Source of the DNA: Bolinopsis microptera
Lineage: Eukaryota; Ctenophora; Tentaculata; Lobata; Bolinopsidae
Reading direction: 5' to 3'
DNA length: 64,000 nucleotides
NCBI RefSeq assembly: GCF_026151205.1
Contig: NC_087079.1
Location: 6,234,169-6,298,168, forward strand
The position numbers and the translations under genes are program-made. The notes under the pieces were generated by a model. That model saw only the letters and a list, made by a program, of their open reading frames with translations, made no database searches and had not been told where the DNA came from. Below are positions 28,993 to 58,628 of this stretch, piece after piece; position 1 is the stretch's first letter; each line of letters begins with the position of its first letter.

Positions 28993-29117
28993 ATTACTTG
29001 ACTTAAGGCGGCTTCAGAGTCCGAGTCTCAATGATGTGTGCTTTCTCAATGATGTGTGCTTTCTGTCCGCCATAAGCTCCTTAATCTCCCCAGTGTTCTT
29101 GAGTACGGTGTCACTTA

Positions 29118-35143: not shown

Positions 35144-36026
35144 TTTCCAAAAAGCTTTCTTAACCCCTCATAAATTATGAATATTATGAGTCATTTTAAT
35201 CACAATTCACATTGTTTTCAGTTCTCTAGAAACGTTCAGCTCTGTTGAACCTATTATTTGTACGCAGCATTATGCAGCGGTTGGCGAGGTGGGGAGACAT
35301 TTTTCAAAGTCAATTAATTTAGATGTTATCAGTATTGGACACGATAAAGTTCATTCGTATCACCTGAGATTGATTCCTCACGTTATCTTATCACTAGCAA
35401 TGTAGCAATGTTCTGCTCCTGCAAAAAATAAAATCCCTACACGACAACTCATCATGACTGGTTGTTTGTTTTCCGATAAAAAGTTCCAGCAGCGAGATTA
35501 ATCAATATTGCTGGATATTGCCTCTGTTCCCCCTACTCATAACTTCTAACCGTGCTGCCACCGCACAAACTTAACAAATGGCCCGAAATCAGTAACTTTC
35601 CGCCTAATTCACCTTCATTTCTGTTTCATCTCCCCGCTCAGGGGTCTGGGAAATGAGGAAACCCTCTCCGACAGCTCCGGTTCTCTTGTTAGTCCGGGTT
35701 ATTTCCCCTGTGGGAAGATGATGTTCGTCTGCTTGTGAGGAGGATTCAGTGCTGGGTGGTCGGATAATACTTTGTTAGACGTTAGTGTCCGAGCTTGGAA
35801 GCTCTGTTCTTGTAACACCTTGTAACACCTTGTAACACCTTGTAACACCTTTAAATACCTTGTAGTTGTTACTTATTATACAACGTTTTCTCCTTTCTAA
35901 TTCCTTGCAACATATTTTAACTTATCTTAGCCTATTGAGCTTAAATATTCATGTTACAAGCCGATAAAAGAATTTAGATTTTTTACCGTTATTAAAACAT
36001 TATTTTTCCATAATCGTAATCACTAT

Positions 36027-36114
36027 CAGCTTGGCGAGACAAAACCTTTAGTACCAAATTTATGATATACAAATATCATAAATTTGGTACTAAAAGTTTT
36101 GTCTCGCCAAGCTG
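36027..36114. repeat. Intact foldback element, 88 bp (copy 2)
   Basis: Near-perfect inverted repeat with arms of about 42 bp (CAGCTTGGCGAGACAAAAC outermost) around ACAA. About 95 bp of sequence to its right, absent from copy 1, restores homology near TTATCTCTCGTTTTTG. Confidence 0.9.
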
Positions 36115-36393
36115 AAAACAATCCAGTAAAAATATTTCCGAAATTTATTACGATCCTGTAAATAAAAATCCTGTACAGATATTTTGTCATGACGTTACTT
36201 CATCGTTCTTATCTCCACTTATCTCTCGTTTTTGTTAGTCGTTTAATTATCATTCAACTCGTACTCCCCTTCTCTTTTAAAAGACTCTTCCATTTACAAC
36301 TACAACTCTGCCAGTGCCATCCCTTTGAATATCTTCTGCAGGAACATCAACCTGCCGTATAAATTACAAGTTTCCAGAACCCGGTCACCGCTA

Positions 36394-39062
36394 CAGCTGG
36401 ACGTTCAGCGGTTCAGTTGATGTCCGGACTACTCCAGCTGGACGTTCAGCGGTTCAGTTAATGTCCGGACTACTCCAGCTTGACGTTCAGCGGTTCAGTT
36501 AATGTCCGGACTACTCCAGCTTGACGTGCAGCGGTTCAGTTAATGTCCGGACTACTCCAGCTTGGCGTTCAGCGGTTCAGTTAATGTCCGGACTACTCCA
36601 ACTTGACGTTCAGCAGTTCAGTTAATGTCCGGACTACTCCAGCTTGACGTTCAGCGGTTCAGTTAATGTCCGGACTACTCCAGCTTGACGTTCAGCGGTT
36701 CAGTTAATGTCCGGACTACTCCAGCTTGACGTTCAGCGGTTCAGTTAATGTACGGACTACTCCAGCTTGACGTTCAGCGGTTCAGTTAATGTCCGGACTA
36801 CTCCAGCTTGACGTTCAGCGGTTCAGTTAATGTCCGGACTACTTCAGCTTGACGTTCAGCGGTTCAGTTAATGTCCGGACTACTCCAGCTTGACGTTTAG
36901 CGGTTCAGTTAATGTCCGGACTACTCCAACTTGACGTTCAGCGGTTCAGTTAATGTCCGGACTACTCCAGCTTGACGTTCAGCGGTTCAGTTAATGTCCG
37001 GACTACTCCAGCTTGACGTTCAGTGGTTCAGTTAATGTCCGGACTACTCCAGCTTGACGTTCAGCGGTTCAGTTAATGTACGGACTACTCCAGCTTGACG
37101 TTCAGCGGTTCAGTTAATGTCCGGACTACTTCAGCTTGACGTTCAGCGGTTCAGTTAATGTCCGGACTACTCCAGCTTGACGTTTAGCGGTTCAGTTAAT
37201 GTCCGGACTACTCCAACTTGACGTTCAGCGGTTCAGTTAATGTCCGGACTACTCCAGCTTGACGTTCAGCGGTTCAGTTAATGTCTGGACTACTCCAGCT
37301 TGACGTTTAGCGGTTCAGTTAATGTCCAGACTACTCCAGCTTGACGTTCAGCGGTTCAGTTAATGTCCGGACTACTCCAGCTTGACGTTCAGCGGTTCAG
37401 TTAATGTCCGGACTACTCCAGCTTGACGTGCAGCGGTTCAGTCAATGTCCAGACTACTCCAGCTTGACGTGCAGCGGTTCAGTCAAAGTCCGGACTACTC
37501 CAGCTTGACGTGCAGCGGTTCAGTCAAAGTCGGACTACTCCAGCTTGACGTGCAGCGGTTCAGTTAATGTCCAGACTACTCCAGCTTGACGTGCAGCGGT
37601 TCAGTCAAAGTCTGGACTACTCCAGCTTGACGTTCAGCGGTTCAGTTAATGTCCGGACTACTCCAGCTTGACGTGCAGCGGTCCGGTTAAGTTAATGTCC
37701 GGACTACTCCAGCTTGACGTTCAGCGGTTCAGTTAATGTTCGGACTACTCCAGCTTGGCGTTCAGCGGTTCAGTTAATGTCCGGACTACTCCAGCTTGAC
37801 GTGCAGCGGTTCAGTCAATGTCCGGACTACTCCAGCTTGACGTTCAGCGGTTCAGTCAATGTCCGGACTACTCCAGCTTGACGTTCAGCGGTTCAGTTAA
37901 TGTCCGGACTACTCCAGCTTGACGTTCAGCGGTTCAGTTAATGTCCGGACTACTCCAGCTTGACGTTCAGCGGTTCAGTTAATGTCCGGACTACTCCAGC
38001 TTGACGTTCAGCGGTTCAGTTAATGTCCAGACTACTCCAGCTTGACGTTCAGCGGTTCAGTTAATGTCCGGACTACTCCAGCTTGACGTGCAGCGGTTCA
38101 GTCAATGTCCGAACTACTCCAGCTTGATGTTCATCGGTTCATTCAATGTCCGGACTACTCCAGGTTGGCGTTCAGCGGTTCAGTTAATGTCCGGACTACT
38201 TCAGCTTGACTTTTAGCGGTTCAGTTAATGTCCAGACTACTCCAGCTTGACGTTCAGCGGTTCAGTTAATGTCCGGACTACTCCAGCTTGACGTTCAGCG
38301 GTTCAGTTAATGTCTGGACTACTCCAGCTTGACGTTCAGCGGTTCAGTTAATGTCCGGACTACTCCAGCTTGACGTGCAGCGGTTCAGTTAATGTCCGGA
38401 CTACTCCAGCTTGGCGTTCAGCGGTTCAGTTAATGTCCGGACTACTCCAGCTTGACGTTCAGCGGTTCAGTTAATGTCCGGACTACTCCAGCTTGACGTG
38501 CAGCGGTTCAGTTAATGTCCGGACTACTCCAGCTTGACGTGCAGCGGTTCAGTTAATGTCCGGACTACTTCAGCTTGACGTGCAGCGGTTCAGTTAATGT
38601 CCGGACTACTCCAGCTTGACGTTCAGCGGTTCAGTTAATGTCCAGACTACTCCAGCTTGACGTTCAGCGGTTCAGTTAATGTCCGGACTACTCCAGCTTG
38701 ACGTTCAGCGGTTCAGTTAATGTCCAGACTACTCCAGCTTGACGTTCAGCGGTTCAGTTAATGTCCGGACTACTCCAGCTTGACGTTCAGCGGTTCAGTT
38801 AATGTCCGGACTACTCCAGCTTGACGTTCAGCGGTTCAGTTAATGTCCGGACTACTCCAGCTTGACGTGCAGCGGTTCAGTTAATGTCCGGACTACTCCA
38901 ACTTGACGTTCAGCGGTTCAGTTAATGTCCGGACCACTCCAGCTTGACGTTCAGCGGTTCAGTTAATGTCCGGACTACTCCAGCTTGACGTTCAGCGGTT
39001 CAGTTAATGTCCGGACTACTTCAACTTGACGTTCAGCGGTTCAGTTAACGTCCGGACGACTT
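36394..39062. repeat. 41-bp minisatellite, copy 2 (about 65 units)
   Basis: Same unit as 17427-18463, expanded about 2.6-fold. Runs of units repeat as blocks (for example the series around 36730-36960 recurs around 37070-37260), pointing to multi-unit duplications. A few units carry small indels, such as GCGGTCCGGTTAAGTTAATG near 37678. Confidence 0.97.
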
Positions 39063-39478
39063 CACATTAATTTGTACCGATACTGTCATCGTCAACATAG
39101 CTCCATAAACGGAATAAATAGGTAACTTTTAATTTAAATCCTAGTATTTTACTATTAAATGTCAGTCCATACTTACCAATATTCATTCGGTATCGCTATT
39201 CAAACGGCATTTAAACGGTTCGATCGGACTATAAATTTAATTGTCAGTCGCATATTCGTGGTATTCTTTTGTTGGGAGTTCGATTGTAGCAAGAGTGGAA
39301 TTCGATCATGAAACTTAATTTTTTTGTAATTTACCAACTTAAGTAGTAGTAACTACAAAAATTTATTATGAATTATGATATCAGCCCCACACAGAGATAT
39401 AATAGTTATTATTATTAAAGAAATAACAACAAAAGAAGTATTAAAATAACCTCTGAACACACCCTACTTGGTGTGGTA

Positions 39479-40797: not shown

Positions 40798-41736
40798 GTT
40801 TAAGGTTATAATATTCATTATGCAGGCTATCTTTATGCGAATAATTTGTCCTTGGTCTCAGGAATTGGCTAAATTAGCACTAAATGGACTATTCAAGTCA
40901 TTTGATTTCCCGTTTTATGATGACCACCAATGTTTAGTTAAAAGGATGAAAATTGTATCTTTAAATTTAAAGTAACCCCTGCGCCTTCAGATTCGCAATT
41001 AAAGAAAATTTTCTGAGGTTACTTCTTTGGTTCTCCTATAATGCACTTGTTTTATATGATCTATTGAAAAATATGACGTTAATCATCTAACAAAGGCACG
41101 AAATGACAATTAACATCAATTTACTCCTTTATAATCTAAATTGTCCCCCACATTCACTATTTGAATCTAGCAGATAGTATCTTTAAAGAGAACAGCACCA
41201 GCTGCACTGTTTAGTATCCCAGTCCCTCGGGTCCGCACTTAGCATGTCAAACTAGACATAGCACGTCAACTTTTGTCTACCTCATCCTCCTCTAACATTA
41301 GCATTACTTTGGCCCGCATTGACAGTGACTTTTTCGTCGTTAAATGTTATAATCGATATGGATAAACCGGTGCTAAAGAATCATATAATATAAACTAATT
41401 AAACAGAAAAATTTCGTCATTTTTCAAATTTTTTAATAAACGATTATACGACTAACAATAAAATGTATTATAAACCCATTCTTGATGAGTTATATGATAC
41501 TTGATATTGGAGAAACTCCTAACAGTACCTTAAACCACGATCTGTGACTGTCTCCAATTATCAGTCATGTGGGATCATGATTTCTCTTTATTCTATAATT
41601 TCTAATATACTCCAGCTTGGCATATGAGCATATCTACACTGTGCCAGCGTATTTAGCGTGGAATTGTGAGATTTATATCATAAATCAATGTTGTGGACAT
41701 AGCCGCATTATTATTATTTAAGGTTCGAATCATAAA
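40798..41736. other. Unique intergenic DNA left of the Polinton-like element
   Basis: No gene, repeat or transposon end recognised between the segmental duplication and the 6-bp target duplication CATAAA (41731-41736). Confidence 0.45.
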
Positions 41737-41864
41737 AGTAGTATGACTATGCCGGGCCAGACTCATTTCGAGAACAGTGGATTTCAGGCGGAAATAGGGC
41801 GGTTTGAAAATCTGACATATAAATTTGTGTGTAAAAAAGGGTGTAATTAGTTTCCGGGTTAACC

Positions 41865-42355
41865 CTAGGTAGCTGGATTGAGTGAGCTTTCCGGGTGTGG
41901 TAACCCTAGTCAACCCTAGCTAGAATGGGAATGTATATTCTCAAAATATTTGCTGTATAGTTCCGGGTTATATAGGATATGTGCAGGAAGTGTGGCCTTG
42001 AAATTTATACTAGGTAGCTGGATTGAGTGAGCTTTCCGGGTGTAGTAACCCTAGTCAACCCTAGCTAGAATGGGAAAGTATATTCTCAAAATATTTGCTG
42101 TATAGTTCCGGGTTATATAGGATATATGCAGGAAGTGTGGCCTTGAAATTTATACTAGGTAGCTGGATTGAGTGAGCTGTCCGGGTGTAGTAACCCTAGT
42201 CAACCCTAGCTAGAATGGGAAAGTATATTCTCAAAATATTTGCTGTATAGTTCCGGGTTATATAGGATATATGCAGGAAGTGTGGCCTTGAAATTTATAC
42301 TAGGTAGCTGGATTGAGTGAGCTGTCCGGGTGTAGTAACCCTAGCAAACTTTAGC
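41865..42355. repeat. 145-bp subterminal repeats, left arm
   Basis: Three full units and a partial one starting CTAGGTAGCTGGATTGAGTG at 41865, 42010, 42155 and 42300, 128 bp inside the element end. Mirrored at 55075-55565. Subterminal arrays often bind transposition or replication proteins; that role is inference here. Confidence 0.93.
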
Positions 42356-42731
42356 TGTGTGCAATTATATTCCTAATAATGTCTGTGCTGTGCTCTAGAT
42401 AAGTAAAATAGTTTCACTTGAAGATATGACTGGCAGTCTGACAAGCCAATCAGGAAGACTAGTCGATATTTTTTCACTCTGGCCCCGGAACTAATTACAT
42501 GAGGACATGACCGGTAGTCTGACAAGCCGATCGGGATATCAATTAACACTTCAATTAACATCCGTGCAGGGTGTTAATTGATACTGGATATTCGGTGCTG
42601 ATAGAGGATGTGTTATATAAACCAAAAATTTTGCAGTTGACATTATCTATTTGCTAATTTGATTGAATTCGCTGCTTGAATTATCAAATCTTGAAACAAC
42701 CGATTGTCAGATTATTTCCCCTTTGGTCGCT

Positions 42732-43430
42732 ATGACAAAGAGCCCTTGTCATTTCGGTCCTTCTACGGACTTTAAGTTCAGTGGTGAATATGATTCAGCC
42801 CTTGCGGAGGTTTCCAAGTCTATTTGGCGTGCTCGGGATAACTATCCTATTAAAGCACTTTTGACTGTGACTGCCTCGAATGGTAACCGCTATGTGTCCA
42901 GTCCCTTGTACGTTCATCAGTTTAAACAGGAGATGATTGATCTTACCTTGAGGAGTAGTATTGATGCTCAACTGGAGCTTGCCGTGATGGATGCGGCATG
43001 TGTAGGCGTGTTCGATAGAATAGATACTACCTCTTATTATTTAAACCTCAGACAGATAAGGGATCCAGGTCATCAGTGCCCGGTGTGTCAGAAATGGTAT
43101 GTACGGAATTTTAAGAGACATGTGGAAGCATGTGGTAAGGGTAAGTGGTTTACAGTTTGCCTTACTCATCCTGATGATTTGGTGACTCATCGTTTGGTAT
43201 GTGAGGGGGATCTTTTCCCATGTCGGGTATGTAGTTTGTTTTTCCAGAGTCGGGAGCTTAGATTGGAGCATGAGACGATCTGCAGAAGACCTGATAGTAG
43301 CGCGACAGCCAGGAACGTGAGACCTAGAGTGGAGACAAGTGAGACAGCTGAAGAGAGTTCCTTGGGAAACCAGACGGTAACCAGTATCACGGCCATAGAT
43401 GGATTATTTCGTACGGAATATTTTAACTGA
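42732..43430 (+). CDS. Zinc-finger protein of the Polinton-like element, left arm
   Basis: A 232-residue frame from the ATG at 42732 (the frame is open 69 nt further up without ATG). It has two C2H2/C2HC-type fingers, C-x2-C-x10-H-x3-C (CPVCQKWYVRNFKRHVEAC) and C-x2-C-x12-H-x3-C (CRVCSLFFQSRELRLEHETI then C), with a degenerate His/Cys pair between them and an acidic tail. It is the longest intact frame in the element. It lies upstream of the polymerase on the same strand, so it could be a separate DNA-binding protein or the severed N-terminal part of the polymerase, which in some family members carries fingers. Function is not established. Confidence 0.6.
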   Translation: MTKSPCHFGPSTDFKFSGEYDSALAEVSKSIWRARDNYPIKALLTVTASNGNRYVSSPLYVHQFKQEMIDLTLRSSIDAQLELAVMDAACVGVFDRIDTTSYYLNLRQIRDPGHQCPVCQKWYVRNFKRHVEACGKGKWFTVCLTHPDDLVTHRLVCEGDLFPCRVCSLFFQSRELRLEHETICRRPDSSATARNVRPRVETSETAEESSLGNQTVTSITAIDGLFRTEYFN

Positions 43431-44400
43431 TAAATTAATTCCGCCGGAATAATTAAAGGTAATTGTGACCATTTTAAAAATCGCACGGAATATTTTAACT
43501 GATAAATTAATTCCGCCGGAATATTTTATCTGATAAATTATTTCCGCCGGAATATTTTAACTGATAAATTAATTCCGCCGGAATATTTTATCTGATAAAT
43601 TAATTCCGCCGGAATATTTTATCTGATAAATTAATTCCGTCGGAATAAACAAAGGTAAATACGATCAGTTAAGAATATTTTATCTAATAAATTATTTCCA
43701 CAGGAATAATTAAAGGCAATTGTGAACATTTTAAAATCGCAGAGAATAAAATATAAACAAATTAAAAGTTAAACTGATGCAGTTTTTAAACAAATAAGTT
43801 AATCAACAATCACAAAGCATAACATCTTAAAACTTAAACAAATTCAATATCAAGGAGCTTTGAAGAAATCGTTTCCCAGATTGACTGATATTATTGAATA
43901 TAATCATGGAACTGGTATAAAGTTCAATTTGGAATTGAAAGTAAACCTCAGCAAGATGGTCACCGGAGACATCGTAGCTAAAACGTTTGATAGCGAGATG
44001 ATACCATTAGAGATGGGAATGGATAATATTTTATCTAATAAATTATTTCCACAGGAATAATTAAAGGCAATTGTGAACCTTTTAAAAATCGCTCGGAATA
44101 TTTTAACTGATAAATTAATTCCGCCGGAATAAATAAAGGTAAATGCGAATAGTTGAGAATACTTTATCTAATAAATTAATTCCACAGGAATAATTAAAGG
44201 CAATTGTGAACATTTTAAAAATCGCACGGAATATTTTATCTGACAAATTAATTCCGCCAGAATATTTTATTTGATAAATTAATTCCGCCGGAATATTTTA
44301 TCTGATAAATTAATTCCGCCGGAATATTTTATTTGATAAATTAATTCCGCCGGAATATTTTATCTGATAAATTAATTCCGCCGGAATTAATAAAGGAAAA
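43430..44400. repeat. Array of 31-bp near-palindromic repeats upstream of polymerase, left arm
   Basis: Units CCGCCGGAATATTTTATCTG followed by ATAAATTAATT at 31-bp spacing (for example 44285 and 44316), mixed with a longer composite unit containing AATTAAAGGCAATTGTGAAC. Each unit is an imperfect inverted repeat centred on TATCTGATA. The short frame 43860-44060 (plus) lies between two sub-arrays; its opposite strand next to 43850 ends in a peptide like the polymerase C-end, so its coding strand is unclear. Mirrored at about 53030-54000. Confidence 0.85.
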
Positions 44401-44429
44401 TGCGAATAGTTAAGATTATCGCTAATCCA

Positions 44430-46626
44430 AATTGTGTTATTTGCAAATGTAAACTTATTAAAGATAAACATCTCGATCACTGTCACTACACTGTAAAGTT
44501 TTAGGTTACACTCATCCACCATGCAACCTAGAACGTCAAACACCAAAGTATTTACCCATTTTCTTTCACAATCTTAAAGGATACGACTCACACATGGTTA
44601 TTGGAGGTATTGCAGATCGTGTTGATGATCCTAGGGATATCTATGTTATCGCCAAGGCTATGGAAACATATACAGCATTCAGCACTAAAAAGTTCAGATT
44701 CATTGACTCATGTGCTCACCTCAACTCCTCTCTAGAGAAACTTGTGTCTAATCTTCATTCGTCAGGACCTGTCGAAGACTTCCTTCAGCAGAAGTTTGGT
44801 TCTGTGGAGCCTGAGAAACTGGAGCTTCTTCTTCGCAAAGGGGTGTACTCATACTCCTACTTCAAGACCTTCGAGACCCTTGAGGAGTCTGAACTAACTC
44901 CTATTACGGCTTTCTTCAATGACCTGAACGATGAACCCTGCTCGGAGGAGGACTATGCTCATGTGCAGAAAGTCTGGGAGGTGTTTGGTTTGGAGAGTCT
45001 CGAGGATCTGGTATATCTCTACATAGCCTCTGATGTCCTACTCCTCGACTCAGTGCTACAACAGTATAGGACAGAGTGTATAAATTCTTATGATCTTGAT
45101 CCTGTTCATTATTACACTGCACCAGGTCTAACATGAGATGCAGGATTAAAGTATACTGAGGTAGAGCTAGAATGATTGGATGATCAGGAAATGTATAATT
45201 TTATCGAGCAGGCTATCCGTGGTGGCATTAGCAACATTACTCATCGCTATGCTAAGGCTAACAATCATAATCTTCCAGACTTTGATCCTTCTAAACCTGA
45301 AAGCTACTTTTCCTATATAGACGCAAACAACGTGTACGGATGGGATATGTGTCATGAGAAGCTTCCTATATCGGGCTACAAGTGGCAGAAACCGGGTAAA
45401 CTTCTCACCATCGACGACATCATGGCTTGGGATCCGAATGGTGACGTGGCTTACTTTTTCAAGTGTAATTATTTACAGATATGAAACCCGAGGATCACGA
45501 AAAAATCCAACGATCTACCTCTATTCCCTGAATCTCTGGTGGTACAGGATAGTATGGTATCAAATGCAACTCGTAAGGCAATGGAGAGGAGAGGGGGTAA
45601 ACTCCGTTGATCCTTCTAAGAAGCTTGCTCCAAACCTCTTTCCTAAGATTAAGCATAAGATTCATGTACGTAGCAGCATTGCAGTATTACATTTCAATCA
45701 GCGGTGTTTCTACCAAGATTCATAGAGTTATAGAATTTAAGCGGTCTGATTGGTTAAGGAAGTACATTGCATTTAACGCCAAAAAACGACAGGAGTCTAC
45801 TTCAGAGTTTGGTAAAGCTTTCTTCAAACTACTGAACAATGCCTTCTTCGGGAAGAGTATGGAGTCGGTGAGACTTAGAGTGAACATCAGACTGATACGG
45901 AACGGCAGGCAACATCGCTTTCAGACTAGTAAACCTGGATTCAAGAGGTTTTGCATTTTCTCTGATAAACTGGTTGGACTAGAACTTGTAAAGCCTGTTA
46001 TCGTGTTAGATAAGCCGATTTATTTAGGAGCAGCTATTTTAAACTTGTCAAAATTGTTAATGTATAGATTCTGGTACGATGCCCTCAAGGTTAAATATAG
46101 TAACATTAAATTATGTATTACGGATACAGATAGTTTCTTATATTGGGTTGAAACTGCCGATCTGCATAAAGACTATCAGGATATGGCCAGTCATTTCGGC
46201 ACTAGTATTTACCCTACTGAGCACCCCCTATTTGATTTAACTAACAAGGCAGTACCGGGCTTAGTGAAAGATGAATTTGCGGGTAAGTTTGCCTCTGAGT
46301 TTTGTGGATTAAGAAGTAAATTATATAACTGTAAAGATCATGAAGCTGATGGTAAGATGGCCACAGCAGGGGTTAAACATAAAGTAGCTAGGCGTCACTT
46401 ATTACATGAGAAATATAAAAGTGTTTTGTTCGGTGGAGAGGAAGTGAGGGTTAACCAAACCGCACTAAGAAGTTAAAATCATACAATGTATACTATTAAG
46501 CAGAGGAAATGTACACTTTCTGCCATTGATAATAAGAGATATATTTTACCAGACTTAGTCACCACTAGAGCTTTAAGACATTGCCTTAACCAGCCTGAAC
46601 TAGACTGTGACATTGATTTTGTTTAA
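44430..46626 (+). pseudogene. polB: Family-B DNA polymerase (Polinton type), broken, left arm
   Basis: Motifs in order: a Cys/His endonuclease-VII-like knot (CVICKC...DHCH) near 44433-44490; Exo II FHNLKGYDSH just before 44594; YSYSYFKTFETL; Exo III YIASDVLLLDSV; motif A DANNVYGWDM near 45320; motif B KLLNNAFFGKSME near 45825; motif C ITDTDSFLYW near 46120; a Lys-rich thumb. Exo I is not seen. Breaks: frame change near 44500, TGA at 45134-45136 and 45173-45175, frame changes between about 45470 and 45680, TAA at 46474-46476, with coding-like sequence continuing to TAA 46624-46626. The catalytic palm residues are kept, but no full enzyme can be made. Pol B of this class copies linear elements by protein priming. 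Confidence 0.88.
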
Positions 46627-46789
46627 GTTTTAAGATGTTATGCTTTGTGATTGTTGATTAACTTATTTGTTTGTTTTTTTAAATTGTAAAATTTCATAAT
46701 TTTATTAGATTGTATATCATTTCAGCTTTATTTATATGATTTTTAAATTGCATCAGTTTAACTTTTAATTTGTTTATATTTTATTCTCT

Positions 46790-47270
46790 GCGATTTTGAT
46801 ATGTTCACAATTGCCTTGAATTATTCCTATGGAATTAATTTGTTAGATTAAATATTCTCAACTATTCGCATTTACCTAAGTTATTTATTCCGGCGGAATT
46901 AATCTATCAGATAAAATATTCCGGCGGAATTAATTTATCAGATAAAATATTCCGGCGGAATTAATTTATCAGAAAAAATATTCCGGCGGAATTAATTTAT
47001 CAGATAAAATATTCCGTGCGATTTTCAAAATGTTCACAAATACCTTTAATTATTCCTGTGGAATTAATTTATTAGATAAAATATTTTCAACTATTCACAT
47101 TTACCTTTATTTCTTCCGGCGGAATTAATTTATCAGATAAAATATTCCGTGCGATTTTTTAAATGATCACAATTGCCTTTAATTATTCCTGTAGAATTAA
47201 TTTATTAGATAAAATATTTTCAACTATTCAAATTTACCTTTAATTATTCCCGTGAAATTTATTTAACTTA
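46790..47270. repeat. Inverted 31-bp repeat array downstream of polymerase, left arm
   Basis: Same repeat family as 43430-44400 but in the opposite orientation (GGAATTAATTTATCAGATAA). Together with 46627-46800, which inverts 43735-43850, this makes a second level of inverted repeats around the polymerase inside each arm. Mirrored at about 50160-50640. Confidence 0.85.
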
Positions 47271-47463
47271 TTTCGAGATTTTACTTTAGATTATTTGCAT
47301 AAGGGAGTTAACTAGGAAATTTCCAAACTGTTTCTTTTAAAAACGGTTCTAGACATTGTTGTTTTATTGTATAACAAGAAATACAAATTTTAAGATAATT
47401 GAAAATCAAAATATATAACATCATAAATATTAACGGCAACTAAAAAATATCACATATCAGTCT

Positions 47464-47739
47464 CTAGTACATTGTGTATAAAGTTGACAATGTTCCACAA
47501 CTTTGCCAGGCTGCAATATCGGGGTTATGTGAGATGCCGCACCATGCTGTCGGGAGCTGTTTGGGGAAAGCGTGGCAGGAGATCTCCTGGATGTTATAAA
47601 TGTCCGCATAGGGAAGGATCGTTGTTAGGAATTTGTATGCGACGTGTCCTGCGCAAAATATCTTATAGTTTGCCAGGGAGTAAATGATGCCAATGTGAGA
47701 GTAGTAGTCTAGAGAACCATCTACTAAAAGCGATCTCAC
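47464..47739 (-). CDS. 91-codon ORF of unknown function near the inner end of the left arm
   Basis: Open frame starting MRSLLVDGSLDYYSHIGIIY; the predicted peptide is rich in Tyr, Ile and Cys and has no recognised motif. A 71-codon frame overlaps on the other strand. The identical frame is mirrored at 49693-49968. It may be a remnant of a lost Polinton gene or chance. Confidence 0.25.
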   Translation of the reverse strand: MRSLLVDGSLDYYSHIGIIYSLANYKIFCAGHVAYKFLTTILPYADIYNIQEISCHAFPKQLPTAWCGISHNPDIAAWQSCGTLSTLYTMY

Positions 47740-47880
47740 TCTAGTTCAGAATAGGATGGGAACATAGCTGGAAGAGAGACAAAACGCTTACGTACGGGAG
47801 CCAAATCCCAGACAGATAAGTGACGATGTAGCACATATTGGAAAAAGTTAAATAGACTTCAGAATAGGAAATTTAACGAG

Positions 47881-48707
47881 AGAGAAAAGTTTGGTGAAGC
47901 TTTCTTCAAACTTCTGAACAATGCTCTCTTCGGGAAGAGTATGGAGTCGGTGAGGCTTAGAGTGAACATCAGACTGATACGGAACGGTAGGCAACATCGC
48001 TTTCAGACTAGTAAACCTGGAATCAAGAGGATTTGCATTTTCTCTGATAAACTGGTTGGACTAGAACTTGTTAAGCCTGTTATCGTGTTAGATAAACCGA
48101 TTTATTTAGGAGCAGCTATTTAGACTTGACCAAATTGTTAATGTATAGGTTCTGGTACGATGTCCTCAAGGTTAAATATAGTAGCATTAAACTATGTTTT
48201 ACGGATACAGATGGTTTCTTATATTGGGTTGAAACTGCCGATCTGCATAAAGACTATCAGGATATGGCCACTCATTTTGACATTAGTAGTTACCCTACTG
48301 ATCACCCTCTATTTGATTTAACTAACAAGACAGTACCGCGTTTAATGAAAGATGAATTTGCAGGTAAATTTGCCTCTGAGTTTGTAGGATTAAGAAGTAA
48401 ATTATATAGCTGTAAAGTTCATGAAGCTGTTGGTATGATGGCCGCAGCAGGGGTTAAATATAGAGTAGCTAGACGTCACTTATTACATGAGAAATATAAA
48501 AGTGTTTTGTTCGGTGGAGAGGAAGTGAGGGTTAACCAAACCGCACTTAGAAGTTAAAATCATACAATGTATACTATTAAGCAGAGGAAATGTGCACTTT
48601 CTGCCATTGATAATAAGAGATATATTTTGCCAGATTTAGTTACCACTAGAGCTTTAAGACATTGCCTTAACCAGCCTGAACTAGACTGTGACATTGATTT
48701 TGTTTAA
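47881..48707 (+). pseudogene. polB: Third, divergent polymerase fragment in the spacer
   Basis: Covers motif B (KLLNNALFGKSME) to the C-end, in the same orientation as the left-arm copy and beginning exactly at the arm border. It differs from the arm copies at many positions. Motif C reads FTDTDGFLYW, with Gly where the arms have Ser. A stop and frame change at 48121-48125 split it, and TAA at 48555-48557 is at the same place as the arms' TAA. It comes from a related but separate polymerase lineage. Confidence 0.82.
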
Positions 48708-49070
48708 GTTTTAAGATGTTATGCTTTGTGATTGTTGATTAACTTATTTGTTTGTTTTTTAAATTGTAAAATTTCATAATTTTATTACATTGTATATCAT
48801 TTCAGCTTTATTTATAAGATTTTTAAACTGCATCAGTTTATCCTTTAATTTGTTTATATTTTATTCTCTGCGATTTTGAAATGTTCACAATTGCTTTTAA
48901 TTATTCCTGTGGAATTACTTTATTAGATTAAATATTCTCAACTATTCGTATTTACCTTTATTTATTCCTGTGGAATTAATTTATCAGATAAAATATTCCG
49001 TGCGATTTTTTAAAATGATCACAATTGCCTTTAATTATTCCTGTAGAATTAATTTATTAGATAAAATATT

Positions 49071-49224
49071 CTCAACTATTCCACAAAGAATCATTGATAA
49101 TGTCAAATAAATGCAAGAAACTTGATTTGTTTCGTTTAATATAAATTCTCAACTATTCCACAAAGAATCATTGATAATGTCAAATAAATGCAAGAAACTT
49201 AATTTGTTTCGTTTAATATAAATC
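49071..49224. repeat. 77-bp direct duplication in the spacer
   Basis: Two copies beginning CTCAACTATTCCACAAAGAA at 49071 and 49148, overlapping the 3' end of the minus-strand ORF. The left copy abuts a 31-bp repeat unit. Confidence 0.9.
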
Positions 49225-49538
49225 CTAACCTTATTTACAAGTGACTTAACCATAGTGCGTTCATCCTCTGATAAAGCTATGCGTTGAGGTTGTGTGATTG
49301 GAATAACCCCATAAGTTAATTCTAGAAATAGACGCCGTAAATCATCAATATGTTTTCTGTTGGAAAGTATCCTTGAAAGTTTTCCATCTTCAATCAGAGT
49401 CCTAATCTCATTAAACTGAGTGATAGTTACACTGTTGATAACTGCCTGATTTATTTTGGTCATAGCTACATCTCCATCAACGGTCAAATCATTAAGCTGT
49501 TCCTCTATTTTTGAAAACATGTCAAACTGTTTTTTCAT
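49149..49538 (-). CDS. 129-codon ORF in the spacer, function unknown
   Basis: Starts at ATG 49538, two bases inside the right-arm border, and reads MKKQFDMFSKIEEQLNDLTV at its N-end. It is mostly charged and probably helical, with KSLVNKVRIYIKRNKLSFLH and a LFDIINDSL stretch at the C-end. It is the only apparently intact frame unique to the spacer. I do not recognise the family. Because the start touches the inversion border, the frame may be cut at its 5' end. Codon use does not look random, but I give no function. Confidence 0.45.
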   Translation of the reverse strand: MKKQFDMFSKIEEQLNDLTVDGDVAMTKINQAVINSVTITQFNEIRTLIEDGKLSRILSNRKHIDDLRRLFLELTYGVIPITQPQRIALSEDERTMVKSLVNKVRIYIKRNKLSFLHLFDIINDSLWNS

Positions 49539-49692
49539 AAAACTTTTCCCTCTCGTTAAATTTCCTATTCTGAAGTCTATTTAACTTTTTCCAATATGTG
49601 CTACTTCGTCACTTATCTGTCTGGGATTTGGCTCCCGTACGTAAGCGTTTTGTCTCTCTTCCAGCTATGTTCCCATCCTATTCTGAACTAGA

Positions 49693-49968
49693 GTGAGATC
49701 GCTTTTAGTAGATGGTTCTCTAGACTACTACTCTCACATTGGCATCATTTACTCCCTGGCAAACTATAAGATATTTTGCGCAGGACACGTCGCATACAAA
49801 TTCCTAACAACGATCCTTCCCTATGCGGACATTTATAACATCCAGGAGATCTCCTGCCACGCTTTCCCCAAACAGCTCCCGACAGCATGGTGCGGCATCT
49901 CACATAACCCCGATATTGCAGCCTGGCAAAGTTGTGGAACATTGTCAACTTTATACACAATGTACTAG
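49693..49968 (+). CDS. 91-codon ORF of unknown function, right arm
   Basis: Mirror copy of 47464-47739 with identical translation. No recognised motif. Confidence 0.25.
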   Translation: MRSLLVDGSLDYYSHIGIIYSLANYKIFCAGHVAYKFLTTILPYADIYNIQEISCHAFPKQLPTAWCGISHNPDIAAWQSCGTLSTLYTMY

Positions 49969-50159
49969 AGACTGATATGTGATATTTTTTAGTTGCCGTT
50001 AATATTTATGATGTTATATATTTTGATTTTCAATTATCTTAAAATTTGTATTTCTTGTTATACAATAAAACAACAATGTCTAGAACCGTTTTTAAAAGAA
50101 ACAGTTTGGAAATTTCCTAGTTAACTCCCTTATGCAAATAATCTAAAGTAAAATCTCGA

Positions 50160-50640
50160 AATAAGTTAAATAAATTTCACGGGAATAATTAAAGGTAAAT
50201 GTGAATAGTTGAAAATATTTTATCTAATAAATTAATTCTACAGGAATAATTAAAGGCAATTGTGATCATTTAAAAAATCGCACGGAATATTTTATCTGAT
50301 AAATTAATTCCGCCGGAAGAAATAAAGGTAAATGTGAATAGTTGAAAATATTTTATCTAATAAATTAATTCCACAGGAATAATTAAAGGTATTTGTGAAC
50401 ATTTTGAAAATCGCACGGAATATTTTATCTGATAAATTAATTCCGCCGGAATATTTTTTCTGATAAATTAATTCCGCCGGAATATTTTATCTGATAAATT
50501 AATTCCGCCGGAATATTTTATCTGATAGATTAATTCCGCCGGAATAAATAACTTAGGTAAATGCGAATAGTTGAGAATATTTAATCTAACAAATTAATTC
50601 CATAGGAATAATTCAAGGCAATTGTGAACATATCAAAATC
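50160..50640. repeat. 31-bp repeat array downstream of the right-arm polymerase
   Basis: Mirror of 46790-47270; units at 31-bp spacing around 50417-50540. Confidence 0.85.
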
Positions 50641-50804
50641 GCAGAGAATAAAATATAAACAAATTAAAAGTTAAACTGATGCAATTTAAAAATCATATAA
50701 ATAAAGCTGAAATGATATACAATCTAATAAAATTATGAAATTTTACAATTTAAAAAACAAACAAATAAGTTAATCAACAATCACAAAGCATAACATCTTA
50801 AAAC

Positions 50805-53000
50805 TTAAACAAAATCAATGTCACAGTCTAGTTCAGGCTGGTTAAGGCAATGTCTTAAAGCTCTAGTGGTGACTAAGTCTGGTAAAATATATCTCTTATT
50901 ATCAATGGCAGAAAGTGTACATTTCCTCTGCTTAATAGTATACATTGTATGATTTTAACTTCTTAGTGCGGTTTGGTTAACCCTCACTTCCTCTCCACCG
51001 AACAAAACACTTTTATATTTCTCATGTAATAAGTGACGCCTAGCTACTTTATGTTTAACCCCTGCTGTGGCCATCTTACCATCAGCTTCATGATCTTTAC
51101 AGTTATATAATTTACTTCTTAATCCACAAAACTCAGAGGCAAACTTACCCGCAAATTCATCTTTCACTAAGCCCGGTACTGCCTTGTTAGTTAAATCAAA
51201 TAGGGGGTGCTCAGTAGGGTAAATACTAGTGCCGAAATGACTGGCCATATCCTGATAGTCTTTATGCAGATCGGCAGTTTCAACCCAATATAAGAAACTA
51301 TCTGTATCCGTAATACATAATTTAATGTTACTATATTTAACCTTGAGGGCATCGTACCAGAATCTATACATTAACAATTTTGACAAGTTTAAAATAGCTG
51401 CTCCTAAATAAATCGGCTTATCTAACACGATAACAGGCTTTACAAGTTCTAGTCCAACCAGTTTATCAGAGAAAATGCAAAACCTCTTGAATCCAGGTTT
51501 ACTAGTCTGAAAGCGATGTTGCCTGCCGTTCCGTATCAGTCTGATGTTCACTCTAAGTCTCACCGACTCCATACTCTTCCCGAAGAAGGCATTGTTCAGT
51601 AGTTTGAAGAAAGCTTTACCAAACTCTGAAGTAGACTCCTGTCGTTTTTTGGCGTTAAATGCAATGTACTTCCTTAACCAATCAGACCGCTTAAATTCTA
51701 TAACTCTATGAATCTTGGTAGAAACACCGCTGATTGAAATGTAATACTGCAATGCTGCTACGTACATGAATCTTATGCTTAATCTTAGGAAAGAGGTTTG
51801 GAGCAAGCTTCTTAGAAGGATCAACGGAGTTTACCCCCTCTCCTCTCCATTGCCTTACGAGTTGCATTTGATACCATACTATCCTGTACCACCAGAGATT
51901 CAGGGAATAGAGGTAGATCGTTGAATTTTTTCGTGATCCTCGGGTTTCATATCTGTAATAATTACACTTGAAAAAGTAAGCCACGTCACCATTCGGATCC
52001 CAAGCCATGATGTCGTCGATGGTGAGAAGTTTACCCGGTTTCTGCCACTTGTAGCCCGATATAGGAAGCTTCTCATGACACATATCCCATCCGTACACGT
52101 TGTTTGCGTCTATATAGGAAAAGTAGCTTTCAGGTTTAGAAGGATCAAAGTCTGGAAGATTATGATTGTTAGCCTTAGCATAGCGATGAGTAATGTTGCT
52201 AATGCCACCACGGATAGCCTGCTCGATAAAATTATACATTTCCTGATCATCCAATCATTCTAGCTCTACCTCAGTATACTTTAATCCTGCATCTCATGTT
52301 AGACCTGGTGCAGTGTAATAATGAACAGGATCAAGATCATAAGAATTTATACACTCTGTCCTATACTGTTGTAGCACTGAGTCGAGGAGTAGGACATCAG
52401 AGGCTATGTAGAGATATACCAGATCCTCGAGACTCTCCAAACCAAACACCTCCCAGACTTTCTGCACATGAGCATAGTCCTCCTCCGAGCAGGGTTCATC
52501 GTTCAGGTCATTGAAGAAAGCCGTAATAGGAGTTAGTTCAGACTCCTCAAGGGTCTCGAAGGTCTTGAAGTAGGAGTATGAGTACACCCCTTTGCGAAGA
52601 AGAAGCTCCAGTTTCTCAGGCTCCACAGAACCAAACTTCTGCTGAAGGAAGTCTTCGACAGGTCCTGACGAATGAAGATTAGACACAAGTTTCTCTAGAG
52701 AGGAGTTGAGGTGAGCACATGAGTCAATGAATCTGAACTTTTTAGTGCTGAATGCTGTATATGTTTCCATAGCCTTGGCGATAACATAGATATCCCTAGG
52801 ATCATCAACACGATCTGCAATACCTCCAATAACCATGTGTGAGTCGTATCCTTTAAGATTGTGAAAGAAAATGGGTAAATACTTTGGTGTTTGACGTTCT
52901 AGGTTGCATGGTGGATGAGTGTAACCTAAAACTTTACAGTGTAGTGACAGTGATCGAGATGTTTATCTTTAATAAGTTTACATTTGCAAATAACACAATT
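50805..53000 (-). pseudogene. polB: Family-B DNA polymerase (Polinton type), broken, right arm
   Basis: Mirror of 44430-46626. It has the same premature stops (at 52294-52296, 52255-52257 and 50955-50957) and the same intact motifs A, B and C. It lacks one T present in the left arm near 45472, so a 182-codon frame (51706-52254) runs where the left arm has two shorter ones. One further substitution changes Pro to Ser nearby. As both arms share the major lesions, neither can supply the enzyme. Confidence 0.88.
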
Positions 53001-53029
53001 TGGATTAGCGATAATCTTAACTATTCGCA

Positions 53030-54000
53030 TTTTCCTTTATTAATTCCGGCGGAATTAATTTATCAGATAAAATATTCCGGCGGAATTAATTTATCAAATA
53101 AAATATTCCGGCGGAATTAATTTATCAGATAAAATATTCCGGCGGAATTAATTTATCAAATAAAATATTCTGGCGGAATTAATTTGTCAGATAAAATATT
53201 CCGTGCGATTTTTAAAATGTTCACAATTGCCTTTAATTATTCCTGTGGAATTAATTTATTAGATAAAGTATTCTCAACTATTCGCATTTACCTTTATTTA
53301 TTCCGGCGGAATTAATTTATCAGTTAAAATATTCCGAGCGATTTTTAAAAGGTTCACAATTGCCTTTAATTATTCCTGTGGAAATAATTTATTAGATAAA
53401 ATATTATCCATTCCCATCTCTAATGGTATCATCTCGCTATCAAACGTTTTAGCTACGATGTCTCCGGTGACCATCTTGCTGAGGTTTACTTTCAATTCCA
53501 AATTGAACTTTATACCAGTTCCATGATTATATTCAATAATATCAGTCAATCTGGGAAACGATTTCTTCAAAGCTCCTTGATATTGAATTTGTTTAAGTTT
53601 TAAGATGTTATGCTTTGTGATTGTTGATTAACTTATTTGTTTAAAAACTGCATCAGTTTAACTTTTAATTTGTTTATATTTTATTCTCTGCGATTTTAAA
53701 ATGTTCACAATTGCCTTTAATTATTCCTGTGGAAATAATTTATTAGATAAAATATTCTTAACTGATCGTATTTACCTTTGTTTATTCCGACGGAATTAAT
53801 TTATCAGATAAAATATTCCGGCGGAATTAATTTATCAGATAAAATATTCCGGCGGAATTAATTTATCAGTTAAAATATTCCGGCGGAAATAATTTATCAG
53901 ATAAAATATTCCGGCGGAATTAATTTATCAGTTAAAATATTCCGTGCGATTTTTAAAATGGTCACAATTACCTTTAATTATTCCGGCGGAATTAATTTAT
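53030..54000. repeat. 31-bp repeat array upstream of the right-arm polymerase
   Basis: Mirror of 43430-44400, including the 66-codon frame (53370-53570, minus). Confidence 0.85.
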
Positions 54001-54698
54001 CAGTTAAAATATTCCGTACGAAATAATCCATCTATGGCCGTGATACTGGTTACCGTCTGGTTTCCCAAGGAACTCTCTTCAGCTGTCTCACTTGTCTCCA
54101 CTCTAGGTCTCACGTTCCTGGCTGTCGCGCTACTATCAGGTCTTCTGCAGATCGTCTCATGCTCCAATCTAAGCTCCCGACTCTGGAAAAACAAACTACA
54201 TACCCGACATGGGAAAAGATCCCCCTCACATACCAAACGATGAGTCACCAAATCATCAGGATGAGTAAGGCAAACTGTAAACCACTTACCCTTACCACAT
54301 GCTTCCACATGTCTCTTAAAATTCCGTACATACCATTTCTGACACACCGGGCACTGATGACCTGGATCCCTTATCTGTCTGAGGTTTAAATAATAAGAGG
54401 TAGTATCTATTCTATCGAACACGCCTACACATGCCGCATCCATCACGGCAAGCTCCAGTTGAGCATCAATACTACTCCTCAAGGTAAGATCAATCATCTC
54501 CTGTTTAAACTGATGAACGTACAAGGGACTGGACACATAGCGGTTACCATTCGAGGCAGTCACAGTCAAAAGTGCTTTAATAGGATAGTTATCCCGAGCA
54601 CGCCAAATAGACTTGGAAACCTCCGCAAGGGCTGAATCATATTCACCACTGAACTTAAAGTCCGTAGAAGGACCGAAATGACAAGGGCTCTTTGTCAT
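54000..54698 (-). CDS. Zinc-finger protein of the Polinton-like element, right arm
   Basis: Mirror of 42732-43430 with an identical predicted protein of 232 residues and the same two Cys/His fingers. Its stop codon lies next to the first 31-bp repeat units. That this frame is intact in both arms while the polymerase is broken is notable. Confidence 0.6.
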   Translation of the reverse strand: MTKSPCHFGPSTDFKFSGEYDSALAEVSKSIWRARDNYPIKALLTVTASNGNRYVSSPLYVHQFKQEMIDLTLRSSIDAQLELAVMDAACVGVFDRIDTTSYYLNLRQIRDPGHQCPVCQKWYVRNFKRHVEACGKGKWFTVCLTHPDDLVTHRLVCEGDLFPCRVCSLFFQSRELRLEHETICRRPDSSATARNVRPRVETSETAEESSLGNQTVTSITAIDGLFRTEYFN

Positions 54699-55074
54699 AG
54701 CGACCAAAGGGGAAATAATCTGACAATCGGTTGTTTCAAGATTTGATAATTCAAGCAGCGAATTCAATCAAATTAGCAAATAGATAATGTCAACTGCAAA
54801 ATTTTTGGTTTATATAACACATCCTCTATCAGCACCGAATATCCAGTATCAATTAACACCCTGCACGGATGTTAATTGAAGTGTTAATTGATATCCCGAT
54901 CGGCTTGTCAGACTACCGGTCATGTCCTCATGTAATTAGTTCCGGGGCCAGAGTGAAAAAATATCGACTAGTCTTCCTGATTGGCTTGTCAGACTGCCAG
55001 TCATATCTTCAAGTGAAACTATTTTACTTATCTAGAGCACAGCACAGACATTATTAGGAATATAATTGCACACA

Positions 55075-55565
55075 GCTAAAGTTTGCTAGGGTTACTACAC
55101 CCGGACAGCTCACTCAATCCAGCTACCTAGTATAAATTTCAAGGCCACACTTCCTGCATATATCCTATATAACCCGGAACTATACAGCAAATATTTTGAG
55201 AATATACTTTCCCATTCTAGCTAGGGTTGACTAGGGTTACTACACCCGGACAGCTCACTCAATCCAGCTACCTAGTATAAATTTCAAGGCCACACTTCCT
55301 GCATATATCCTATATAACCCGGAACTATACAGCAAATATTTTGAGAATATACTTTCCCATTCTAGCTAGGGTTGACTAGGGTTACTACACCCGGAAAGCT
55401 CACTCAATCCAGCTACCTAGTATAAATTTCAAGGCCACACTTCCTGCACATATCCTATATAACCCGGAACTATACAGCAAATATTTTGAGAATATACATT
55501 CCCATTCTAGCTAGGGTTGACTAGGGTTACCACACCCGGAAAGCTCACTCAATCCAGCTACCTAG
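55075..55565. repeat. 145-bp subterminal repeats, right arm
   Basis: Mirror of 41865-42355; three full units plus a partial one. Confidence 0.93.
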
Positions 55566-55699
55566 GGTTAACCAGGAAACTAATTACACCCTTTTTTACA
55601 CACAAATTTATATGTCAGATTTTCAAACCGCCCTATTTCCGCCTGAAATCCACTGTTCTCGAAATGAGTCTGGCCCGGCATAGTCATACTACTCATAAA

Positions 55700-57541
55700 G
55701 TTCACAAATGCTATAATACTAAGTTTGAATAAATTACTTATATTTATTATCGATTATCACTACGCACTAAAGATAAGATGACACTGCATATAATTATTGC
55801 TGAGAGTAACGTAGCCCGGTAGCCTGTTGCACCTGTGCCACGAGATCCTTTCACTAAGATGCAGACTGTGGTTCCTTCAACAAATTCTTCGCAGCACATT
55901 TTTGTGCCAACGGTTATTTTTCAGTGCCAAGAATCGCTGGAATTGCCAGCATATTGTTATGGCACCTGGCTCCAAGAAAAGTGAAATGTTTGGGTTCAAG
56001 AAAAGTGAAATGTTTGGGTTCAAGAAAAGTGAAATGTTTCCCTCACAACTCACGAACTGTTCATCTAGAATTGTTTTTAATTCTCCATATTATTATCTTA
56101 TTATGGAGCCACCGGCTACACCTGGTTAAAACTTAAAACGCTTCCATCCCATTACATAATACTGGATATTACAATTCCCTCCAGCCTCTCTAGGGTTGTT
56201 AGATGTACTTTATCCAGATATTCACTAACATTGGTCACATCCTTCATTGCAACAGGTAGTTGATACGGCCAGTTGCTGGTTGGTGGTACCAAATTAGGGT
56301 TTTAAAAACCGCTGCAGCGATTATTATTAGTGATAGATGTGCAATATCCGATGACGTCATGATTTAACGTGACGTCAGAATTTAACGTGACGTCAGAATT
56401 TAACGTCAGTTCAACCGTCACGCTTGTAAATCGTAACAGATGTTGAATGAAGCGTCTTTGAAGTTACCAGACCCATTGTTCAACTTGCCAATTAGTTTTG
56501 TAGGCGAGGTATTAGGCTCATCTCTACGAATATGACGGTTTAAGCCCCAAATTCAATTGCTTTTGAAGCTTTAGAGTTTCCAAATTTGAGTCGTTCTACA
56601 GCTAGGTTCTGTATTTGTTGTTCTCGTCTCTTCCGTTTTAGTAAAACTGGAATTTTTCATGATTTTGGGTCATGACTCCATCATTGTTTGGAATTAAGAT
56701 TTTGTTGAAGGTATGTCTTACTCTCTCAGCTATAAAGGATCACTTATGCCTAATGACTATGGTCATTAATGGTCACTTATGGTACTATTAAGGTACGAAC
56801 GTCTAGTCTCATCGTGTATTTTCGTACCATTTTGACACTCAAATATTGGAACATGTTCATCATATATTGCATATTGTTTTTTCATGTTTCAATCAACGAA
56901 CAAACTAAAAAATGCACTAGATTAGGAATATGGCTGCTTTAAACGAGATACAATTGCAATATGATGCCACGGAATGGTTAGTTAAAGGCATAAGTGTCTG
57001 AAATAAAGGTTAAGCGTTTAAGAAATAACCTTCTCTGTTTAATGTTTAAGTGACTCACCTCCTTACTCAGTTTATTTGTCTAAAAAGCGCCATTTTTTGC
57101 CTAATATAGCCAACATATAACATGACGAGCAAGTAGGATGACGTCACAACACATGCCCAAATATGGGCATCAAAAGCTCTTCGTACAGGAGAGTTCCAAT
57201 GTTGCTGACAGTTACCAATTGTTTCTATTCATGATTATCCGGCTAGTTTTCTAAACAGTTCACAGCTGGCACCAAGAGCTGTTTAACTTTAACATCCAGG
57301 TGCTTCTAATATGTTATACTTAACCGTTTTTATCTCGCAGTCACATCTAATAGCTTTCCTTTGTTACTCCTAGGAACAGTTTGTTTTGGTGTTGGGGACG
57401 TCGATCACAAGAAAGTAAGAAAAAACAATGAAATTTGAAAAGCACGCACAACATTTCCTCATTTCCAAAGTAGTACTTTAGTGTGCCGACTAATAAAGTA
57501 GTTAGGTTGTGTTGCTGTATTTAGTATAAGTAGAGGGCTCC
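55700..57541. other. Unique intergenic DNA right of the Polinton-like element
   Basis: Small repeats only: an 18-bp AAGAAAAGTGAAATGTTTGG-type triplication (about 55973-56040) that keeps frames of 70 and 100 codons open, and a GACGTCAGAATTTAAC-type repeat at about 56368-56405. No gene recognised. Confidence 0.45.
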
Positions 57542-58628
57542 GGGCCATGCTGAGGGGTTGCCTGATCATTCCTGACTCCTAGCCTTCTCCTTTGGGCCAT
57601 GCTGAGGGGTTGCCTGATAATTCCTGACTCCTAGCCTTCTCCTTTGGGCCATGCTGAGGGGTTGCCTGATCATTCCTGACTCCAAGCCTTTTCCTTTGGG
57701 CCATGCTGAGGGGTTGCCTGATCATTCCTGACTCATAGCCTTTTCCTGTGGGCCATGCTGAGGGGTTGCCTGATCATTCCTGACTCCTAGCCTTTTCCTG
57801 TGGGCCATGTTGAGGGGTTGCCTGATCATTCCTGACTCCTAGCCTTCTCCTTCGGGCCATGCTGAGGGGTTGCCTGATCATTCCTGACTCCTAGCCCTTT
57901 CCTTCGGGCCATACTGAGGGGTTGCCTGATCATTCCTGACTCCTAGCCTTCTCCTTTGGGCCATGCTGAGGGGTTGCCTGATAATTCCTGACTCCTAGCC
58001 TTCTCCTTTGGGCCATGCTGAGGGGTTGCCTGATCATTCCTGACTCCTAGCATTCTCCTTCGGGCCATGTTGAGGGGTTGCCTGATCATTCCTGACTCCT
58101 AGCCTTTTCCTTCGGGCCATGCTGAGGGGTTGCCTGATCATTCCTGACTCCTAGCATTCTCCTTCGGGCCATGCTGAGGGGTTGCCTGATCATTCCTGAC
58201 TCCTAGCCTTCTCCTTCGGGCCATGCTGAGGGGTTGCCTGATCATTCCTGACTCCTAGCCTTTTCCTTCGGGCCATACTGAGGGGTTGCCTGATCATTCC
58301 TGACTCCTAGCCTTCTCCTTCGGGCCATGTTGAGGGGTTGCCTGATCATTCCTGACTCCTAGCCTTCTCCTTCGGGCCATGCTGAGGGGTTGCCTGATCA
58401 TTCCTGACTCCTAGCCTTCTCCTTCGGGCCATGCTGAGGGGTTGCCTGATCATTCCTGACTCCTAGCCTTTTCCTTCGGGCCATGCTGAGGGGTTGCCTG
58501 ATCATTCCTGACTCCTAGCATTCTCCTTCGGGCCATGCTGAGGGGTTGCCTGATAATTCCTGACTCCTAGCCTTCTCCTTCGGGCCATGCTGAGGGGTTG
58601 CCTGATCATTCCTGACTCCTAGCATTCT
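57542..58628. repeat. 52-bp minisatellite (about 21 units)
   Basis: Unit GGGCCATGCTGAGGGGTTGC followed by CTGATCATTCCTGACTCCTA and GCCTTCTCCTTC. Units differ at a few positions (CATGC/CATGT/CATAC, GATCATT/GATAATT). Head-to-tail with no spacers. Confidence 0.97.

Follow-up and report, generated by a model that had tools for sequence, protein, structure and literature searches.

Structure of the palindromic element

We analyzed a 64,000-bp stretch of the genome of the ctenophore Bolinopsis microptera (assembly GCF_026151205.1, contig NC_087079.1, positions 6,234,169 to 6,298,168), hereafter the window, which is C8:6234169-6298168 in the genome examined (264.65 Mb, 232 contigs). The window contains a 13,957-bp element, element A (window 41737-55693), that has AGTAGTATG at both ends and is built as a palindrome, each arm carrying a family B DNA polymerase (PolB) gene in broken form. 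The left arm (41737..47898, + strand, 6,162 bp) starts with AGTAGTATG and is separated by a single-copy spacer (47899..49533, 1,635 bp) from the inverted right arm (49534..55693, - strand, 6,160 bp). Self-alignment of 41737-47898 with 55693-49534 gave 99.85% identity over 6,162 columns with 2 gap openings; the ungapped match drops off past ~3 kb only because of small indels. The sequence CATAAA is perfectly duplicated on both sides (41731..41736 and 55694..55699, + strand), and the 1-kb flanks are unrelated (best match 14 bp, E 0.43). An earlier note on this DNA had proposed a single mobile unit with a CATAAA duplication and 5'-AG ends, 88% of it being two inverted arms of ~6.15 kb. The coordinates proved exact, the duplication perfect, and the measured arms account for 88% of the element. 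A chance inverted repeat was considered as an account of the palindrome and rejected.

Passages in two papers on Polinton/Maverick elements give a 6-bp target-site duplication, an (AGT)2 end motif, and a family B polymerase as their marks (PMC8097293, PMC4028283). Element A has the 6-bp duplication and the AG-type ends. An ordinary Polinton with short terminal inverted repeats (TIRs) and single-copy genes was rejected as its identity; its 6.16-kb arms with PolB in each make it a derivative and not a full Polinton.

Gene content and linear relatives

From each end of element A inward, the order is 145-bp repeats, the zinc-finger N-terminus of PolB, PolB with 31-bp arrays, and a piece of a second open reading frame (ORF2), followed by the spacer. 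The repeat scan placed 3.3 copies of the 145-bp tandem repeat at 41865..42344 (+) and 55086..55565 (-). The zinc-finger part, seen as a 255-amino acid (aa) ORF and by comparison, lies at 42663..43430 (+) and 54000..54767 (-), and the PolB body, found by comparison, at 44489..46623 (+) and 50808..52941 (-). In the left arm, one 31-bp array interrupts the PolB gene (43486..43647, +) and another stands at the site of a missing PolB part (44227..44387, +). Arrays of 31-bp and 133-bp repeats follow at 46886..47265 (+) and 50167..50546 (-), and the ORF2 pieces close the inner ends of the arms (47728..47898, +; 49534..49704, -). Within the spacer, alignment and comparison revealed a second PolB fragment, ~8% diverged from the arms (47899..48704, +), and the C-terminal part of ORF2 (49084..49532, -). 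Repeat arrays in each arm were thus found as the earlier note had said. It had also listed a polymerase and a zinc-finger ORF for each arm; both sequences are present, but they appear to be one gene, because NCBI gene model P0006 joins them, and that gene is broken in both arms by the internal 31-bp arrays, the loss of a stretch present in the gene of a linear relative, and stop codons.

That linear relative (L017/L018, at C11:19579946) ends as element A does, with 95.7% identity over 185 bp; its PolB frame runs for 859 codons without interruption, and ORF2 faces PolB. A PolB copy near-identical to it, L019, contains DNA_pol_B_2 and Endonuclease_7 above the cut-off, with a match to the protein-primed family B polymerase profile PF03175 at E 4.6e-11; the PolB pieces of A and of a second palindrome, copy B, score below that cut-off. 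Past ORF2, in the opposite direction, the linear relative has a 42-aa open stretch, which we take to resemble the start of a Polinton integrase, and then a gap of 100 Ns. Compared with this relative, the polymerase end is present in A as an inverted duplication; element A has the look of a Polinton of this type that kept its polymerase end, in mirror image about ORF2, and lost its far side.

Two more linear relatives, C9:2024566-2037359 and C6:9801400-9813296, are loaded with other insertions, and no clean duplication was seen at either. The insertions include, in the C9 relative, a retroelement of presumably Penelope-like type that forms its own inverted repeat of ~2.4 kb at 99.9% (L011:5820-7500 and L012:1-3518) and, in the C6 relative, a piggyBac-type transposase (L013:4762-6600; DDE_Tnp_1_7, E 5.8e-44). 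Five further partial end matches were examined as fragments (C11:16816001, C6:18514095, C9:2104848, C8:196442, and C10:18117265). The site C2:11336166 was excluded as a single 275-bp end next to an unrelated inverted duplication; that duplication (L015:856-5832 and L016:4998-3) is ~5 kb long and 84% identical, and one of its open frames presumably encodes a cytochrome P450. Among the scanned ORFs of A and of two elements of a second family, C9a and C11, there were no Pfam matches to capsid, ATPase, or protease, although no search was aimed at these. No relatives of the element were found in viral contigs, and PolB had no match among solved structures.

A second palindromic copy

Copy B is located at C1:3701454-3715105 (arms 98.8% alike, opposite orientation). 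Its PolB is also broken in both arms: stops are present, and the part of the linear relative's gene not found in A was not found in B either. The left end of B starts with T rather than A (TGTAGTATG), and no clean target duplication surrounds it. The arm/spacer junctions are identical in A and B, and 3 arm-specific bases next to the junction (arm positions 6147, 6157, and 6158) were inherited in both copies, which indicates that the A/B palindrome formed once. Beyond these 3 sites, no substitutions inherited by one arm side only were found across the A and B arms. Both A arms differ from both B arms by 28 substitutions and 154 gap columns. The linear relatives served as outgroup and allowed 18 of these substitutions to be polarized, 7 as derived in both A arms and 11 as derived in both B arms; the outgroup gave no cover for the remaining 10. 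Since all 28 are common to both arms of each copy, mutations that followed the A/B split were copied from arm to arm. Private substitutions numbered 3 and 1 in the A arms and 3 and 33 in the B arms, which differ at 39 of 5,988 columns. The 33 lie in clusters, together with numerous single-base gaps, and sequence errors may account for them.

A second family of palindromes

A genome search with PolB, in which 47 of 266 candidates were scored, gave 53 matches and brought to light a second family, arranged as inverted pairs. In C9a (C9:662254-674315; 12,062 bp), a 303-bp spacer separates arms of ~5.9 kb, which align at 99.4% over 4,775 columns and at 100% over a further 1,122; each arm contains an uninterrupted PolB frame of 1,261 aa, directed outward. 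A 27-base end pattern with one free position, which has the same AGTAGTATG start as A, gave 14 exact matches, and these form seven +/- pairs that delimit C9a, C5 (10,312 bp), C7 (15,260 bp), C9b (14,367 bp), C11 (7,669 bp), C12 (8,468 bp), and the fold-back element C13 (8,205 bp). Two other matches, each with 3 mismatches, are unpaired. Six of the 7 elements have the inner arm segment as an inverted pair, which is interrupted in C5. C13, the shorter fold-back, has this segment once, and its arms of ~2.2 kb surround ~3.8 kb of single-copy DNA. The right arm of C13 turns back at a different point from that of the other elements, so palindromes arose more than once.

Target duplications were read in all members but C5 and C12 and were perfect in 5 of 5 (GACGTC, TCTTAG, TACTTG, CTTGTT, and GACAAC); the flanks of C9a share a short repeat of 28-39 bp. 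These duplications indicate that the palindromes were inserted as palindromes. The same claim had been made for element A, and it is strengthened by A's own duplication, the shared junctions of copy B, the seven relatives with paired ends, and the five duplications. Homologs without duplications at AGTAGTATG ends had been named as evidence that would speak against the claim; in a partial survey, the 5 family-2 elements have duplications but copy B does not.

Among scored matches (29 matches; 37 of 232 candidates scored), PolB at 98-100% identity occurred only in the four PolB palindromes C9a, C9b, C7, and C13 (8 matches, 7 of full length), and relatives at ~80% and ~58% identity occurred singly. 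The family-2 palindromes hold 7 uninterrupted 1,261-aa PolB frames. This PolB had no PF03175 match and is 34% identical to L019 over 996 columns.

Arm similarity and probable selection on PolB

When the eight PolB arms were compared over their outer 2.1 kb, arms of the same element differed at 4, 15, 0, and 2 of 1,976 columns and arms of different elements at 6-34, and the arms paired by element in 4 of 4 palindromes. Greater likeness between partner arms than between arms of separate elements is seen in both families. Among the 51 variable columns, 30 had states common to both arms of an element or element group, 17 were single-arm, and 4 fit neither pattern.

In the absence of selection, nonsynonymous changes are expected to be nearly four times commoner than synonymous ones. 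Over 462 C-terminal PolB codons, the left arms of C9a and C7 differ by 10 synonymous and 3 nonsynonymous changes (binomial P 2e-5), and the comparison of the right arm of C9a with C7 gave 8 and 2 (P 1e-4); both comparisons come from a set of 28 arm pairs with a common history. The synonymous excess suggests that the family-2 polymerase was probably kept working while the elements were palindromes.

ORF316 and the central segment

C11 does not contain PolB. Each of its arms (99.0% alike over 1,662 columns) has a 309-316-aa frame, ORF316, whose start is C2H2-like and which has the look of a coiled coil. The same 1.4-kb ORF316 region was found by DNA match in C12 and C5, where it forms inverted pairs at 97-98%. 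Thirty-seven relatives of the ORF316 protein were found in the collection searched, and its N-terminal finger is weakly similar to the ORF2 finger (hhalign probability 25.5). C11, C12, and C5 have their ends and center in common with C9a, C9b, C7, and C13. A speculative arrangement, to which we give little credence, is a split Polinton, in which PolB (C9a, C9b, C7, C13) and conserved ORF316 (C11; by DNA match C12 and C5) would travel on separate palindromes and the integrase on other elements, as a complementing set of mirror dimers. Other inverted pairs of the ORF316 region occur at C89:5111-8113, C7:1340102-1342895, C12:13097596-13102210, and C6:20559748-20561110, some with centers of only ~25-105 bp; these look like further fold-backs.

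The center of C7, C9b, C11, C12, and partly C5 consists of two inverted copies of the 303-bp segment. The inner 148-199 bases of the segment also occur in at least 7 other inverted pairs, 3.6-11.4 kb across, with pairs of the 199-bp segment located on C4, C6, C11, C13, and C21, and for this reason an inserted TIR transposon, judged from coordinates only, may have been the pivot of the family-2 fold-back.

Integrase and mobility

No rve matches lie inside A, B, or the seven family-2 elements among 150 scored of 394 candidates, so the RVE integrase of Polintons was not found in the palindromes by this search. A search with the 42-aa integrase-like start gave 19 matches with E values of 1 or less, one of which is the query; only 4 of the others reach E < 0.001. 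Twelve of the 19 are in uninterrupted 356-363-aa frames, 2 of these at E < 0.001. None of the 19 is in a palindrome. The 1.06-kb outer part of C12 and C5, a stretch that was mapped and not read, had no such match either. None of the 150 scored rve places falls at a place found with the integrase start. Weak integrase-start matches (E 0.08-0.16) at C9:8362673, C11:20204109, C10:2226385, and C3:10438664 lie 7-16 kb from a doubled inner-arm segment, with no PolB among the matches listed nearby.

Because PolB in the window is broken and no integrase was found in the palindromes, mobility was probably provided in trans. The earlier note's suggestion that the element moved with outside help thus gains support, PolB being broken in B as well. 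The source of the integrase is a guess with some support.

Probable origin of the palindromes

Taken together, these data make it probable that element A descends from a ctenophore Polinton as a defective palindrome, formed by fold-back during protein-primed strand-displacement replication and homogenized by arm-to-arm copying. A strand would have folded back during such replication, with one end re-copied in inverted form and the other half of the Polinton lost. The turning point may have been set by short homology in A/B and C13, and perhaps by the central inverted repeat in most of family 2; homology at the A/B and C13 turning points is little. Since the mirror dimer would retain two good ends, a Polinton polymerase (its own in family 2, a foreign one for A/B) could replicate it, and a Polinton integrase from elsewhere could insert it. 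Within a displaced single strand, the long arms could pair and one could serve as the template for correcting the other, as happens between the terminal repeats of adenoviruses, so that a mutation in one arm would be copied into its partner before insertion. Strand displacement with a hairpin or snap-back, the mechanism offered in the earlier note, fits the data but is not proved.

Several observations weigh against this origin. Copy B has no clean duplication, and no free linear or hairpin form has been seen. The arm-to-arm copying could be chromosomal gene conversion. The pairing of the C13 arms is narrow, since their 15 differences make them barely closer to each other than C13 is to C7 and C9b (17-20). 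C7, C9b, C12, and C5 were mapped by matched segments and not by full sequence. Finally, the integrase identity depends on a presumed resemblance over 42 aa; only 4 other places match this stretch at E < 0.001, and the scored rve matches all lie elsewhere than the places it finds.

An alternative that we consider possible but rather unlikely keeps the rare origin by fold-back and movement as a unit, and attributes the likeness of the arms to gene conversion between inverted repeats in the chromosome instead of element replication. Long inverted repeats are known to convert, and concerted changes do not date the copying; however, arms have diverged after insertion in some copies (15 of 1,976 columns in C13; 39 of 5,988 in B, where many differences may be errors).

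We find it harder to believe that the elements are a separate PolB transposon lineage whose normal genome is palindromic, and not Polinton derivatives. Every exact family-2 end is paired (14 ends, 7 elements), near-identical PolB was confined to palindromes among the scored matches, the family-2 PolB is probably under selection, and no palindrome had a scored rve match, all as such a lineage would have it. Yet the family-1 palindromes share their end, PolB, and ORF2 with a linear element, C13 was made by a separate fold-back, the more distant PolB relatives among the scored matches occur singly, and the AGTAGT start with a 6-bp duplication is that described for vertebrate Mavericks (PMC8097293).

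Inverted chimeric reads can yield false palindromes, and the analysis was made from the assembly alone, but an assembly artefact from fold-back reads and a post-insertion duplication of a single-arm element were both rejected as extremely improbable, given the unrelated flanks and perfect duplications of A and 5 of 5 relatives read (the short C9a repeat aside), the single-base differences between arms, and the same junctions at two sites in A and B.

Comparison with known elements

Defective symmetric adenovirus genomes of the Ad12 SYREC type and palindrome or hairpin derivatives of the yeast plasmid pGKL1 consist of one end of a protein-primed linear genome joined to its own mirror image, as the palindromes here appear to do. 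Those derivatives are free replicons in culture, whereas the elements described here are integrated, have target duplications, and have diversified into families.

Intact vertebrate Mavericks are described as having seven or eight single-copy genes, integrase and capsid among them, and TIRs between 46 and 1,447 bp long (PMC8097293). The ctenophore palindromes are like the Polinton/Maverick elements of these sources in their family B polymerase, 6-bp duplication, and (AGT)2 ends, and unlike them in having arms of 2.2-7 kb and no integrase found among the scored candidates. For Galileo, PMC3573991 gives a longest TIR of ~1.26 kb and non-autonomous copies with long, internally repetitive TIRs and no transposase ORF. 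Galileo/Foldback elements, so described, share with the palindromes long, internally repetitive TIRs on non-autonomous copies; here, the arms reach ~7 kb and contain PolB, and the enzymes differ. No description of palindromic Polintons was found among the titles and opening lines of abstracts in a literature search. The ends and duplication are therefore known from Mavericks, and what appears to be new is the palindromic form as a mobile family; its structure is robust, and the mechanism is inferred.

If this origin is correct, Polintons, to which a place near the base of many eukaryotic DNA viruses is often given, yield heritable fold-back genomes like the defective genomes of adenoviruses, and such genomes can establish themselves as an independent mobile family whose polymerase is under selection. 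The two arm copies in each element would be a built-in record that can separate changes before insertion from those after it, and the extrachromosomal replication of Polinton-like elements would become open to test in a living animal.

Other repeats in the window

Window 25345-31863 contains two head-to-tail units of 3.26 kb, 99.97% identical and bounded by inverted GGGGGGGGTGTAACCC-type ends, which are either a tandem TIR element or an assembly duplication. A diverged direct duplication (90-96%) at 15471-18744 and 34456-39341 includes a 41-bp satellite (25 copies compared to 65). Two pairs of direct repeats at ~96-97%, 13648-15479/22357-24205 and 12032-12957/21053-22001, perhaps represent one older segmental duplication. 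Simple arrays consist of ~133 copies of AGACG at 975-1637, a run of 82 G at 24745-24826, and 21 copies of a 52-bp unit at 57541-58628.

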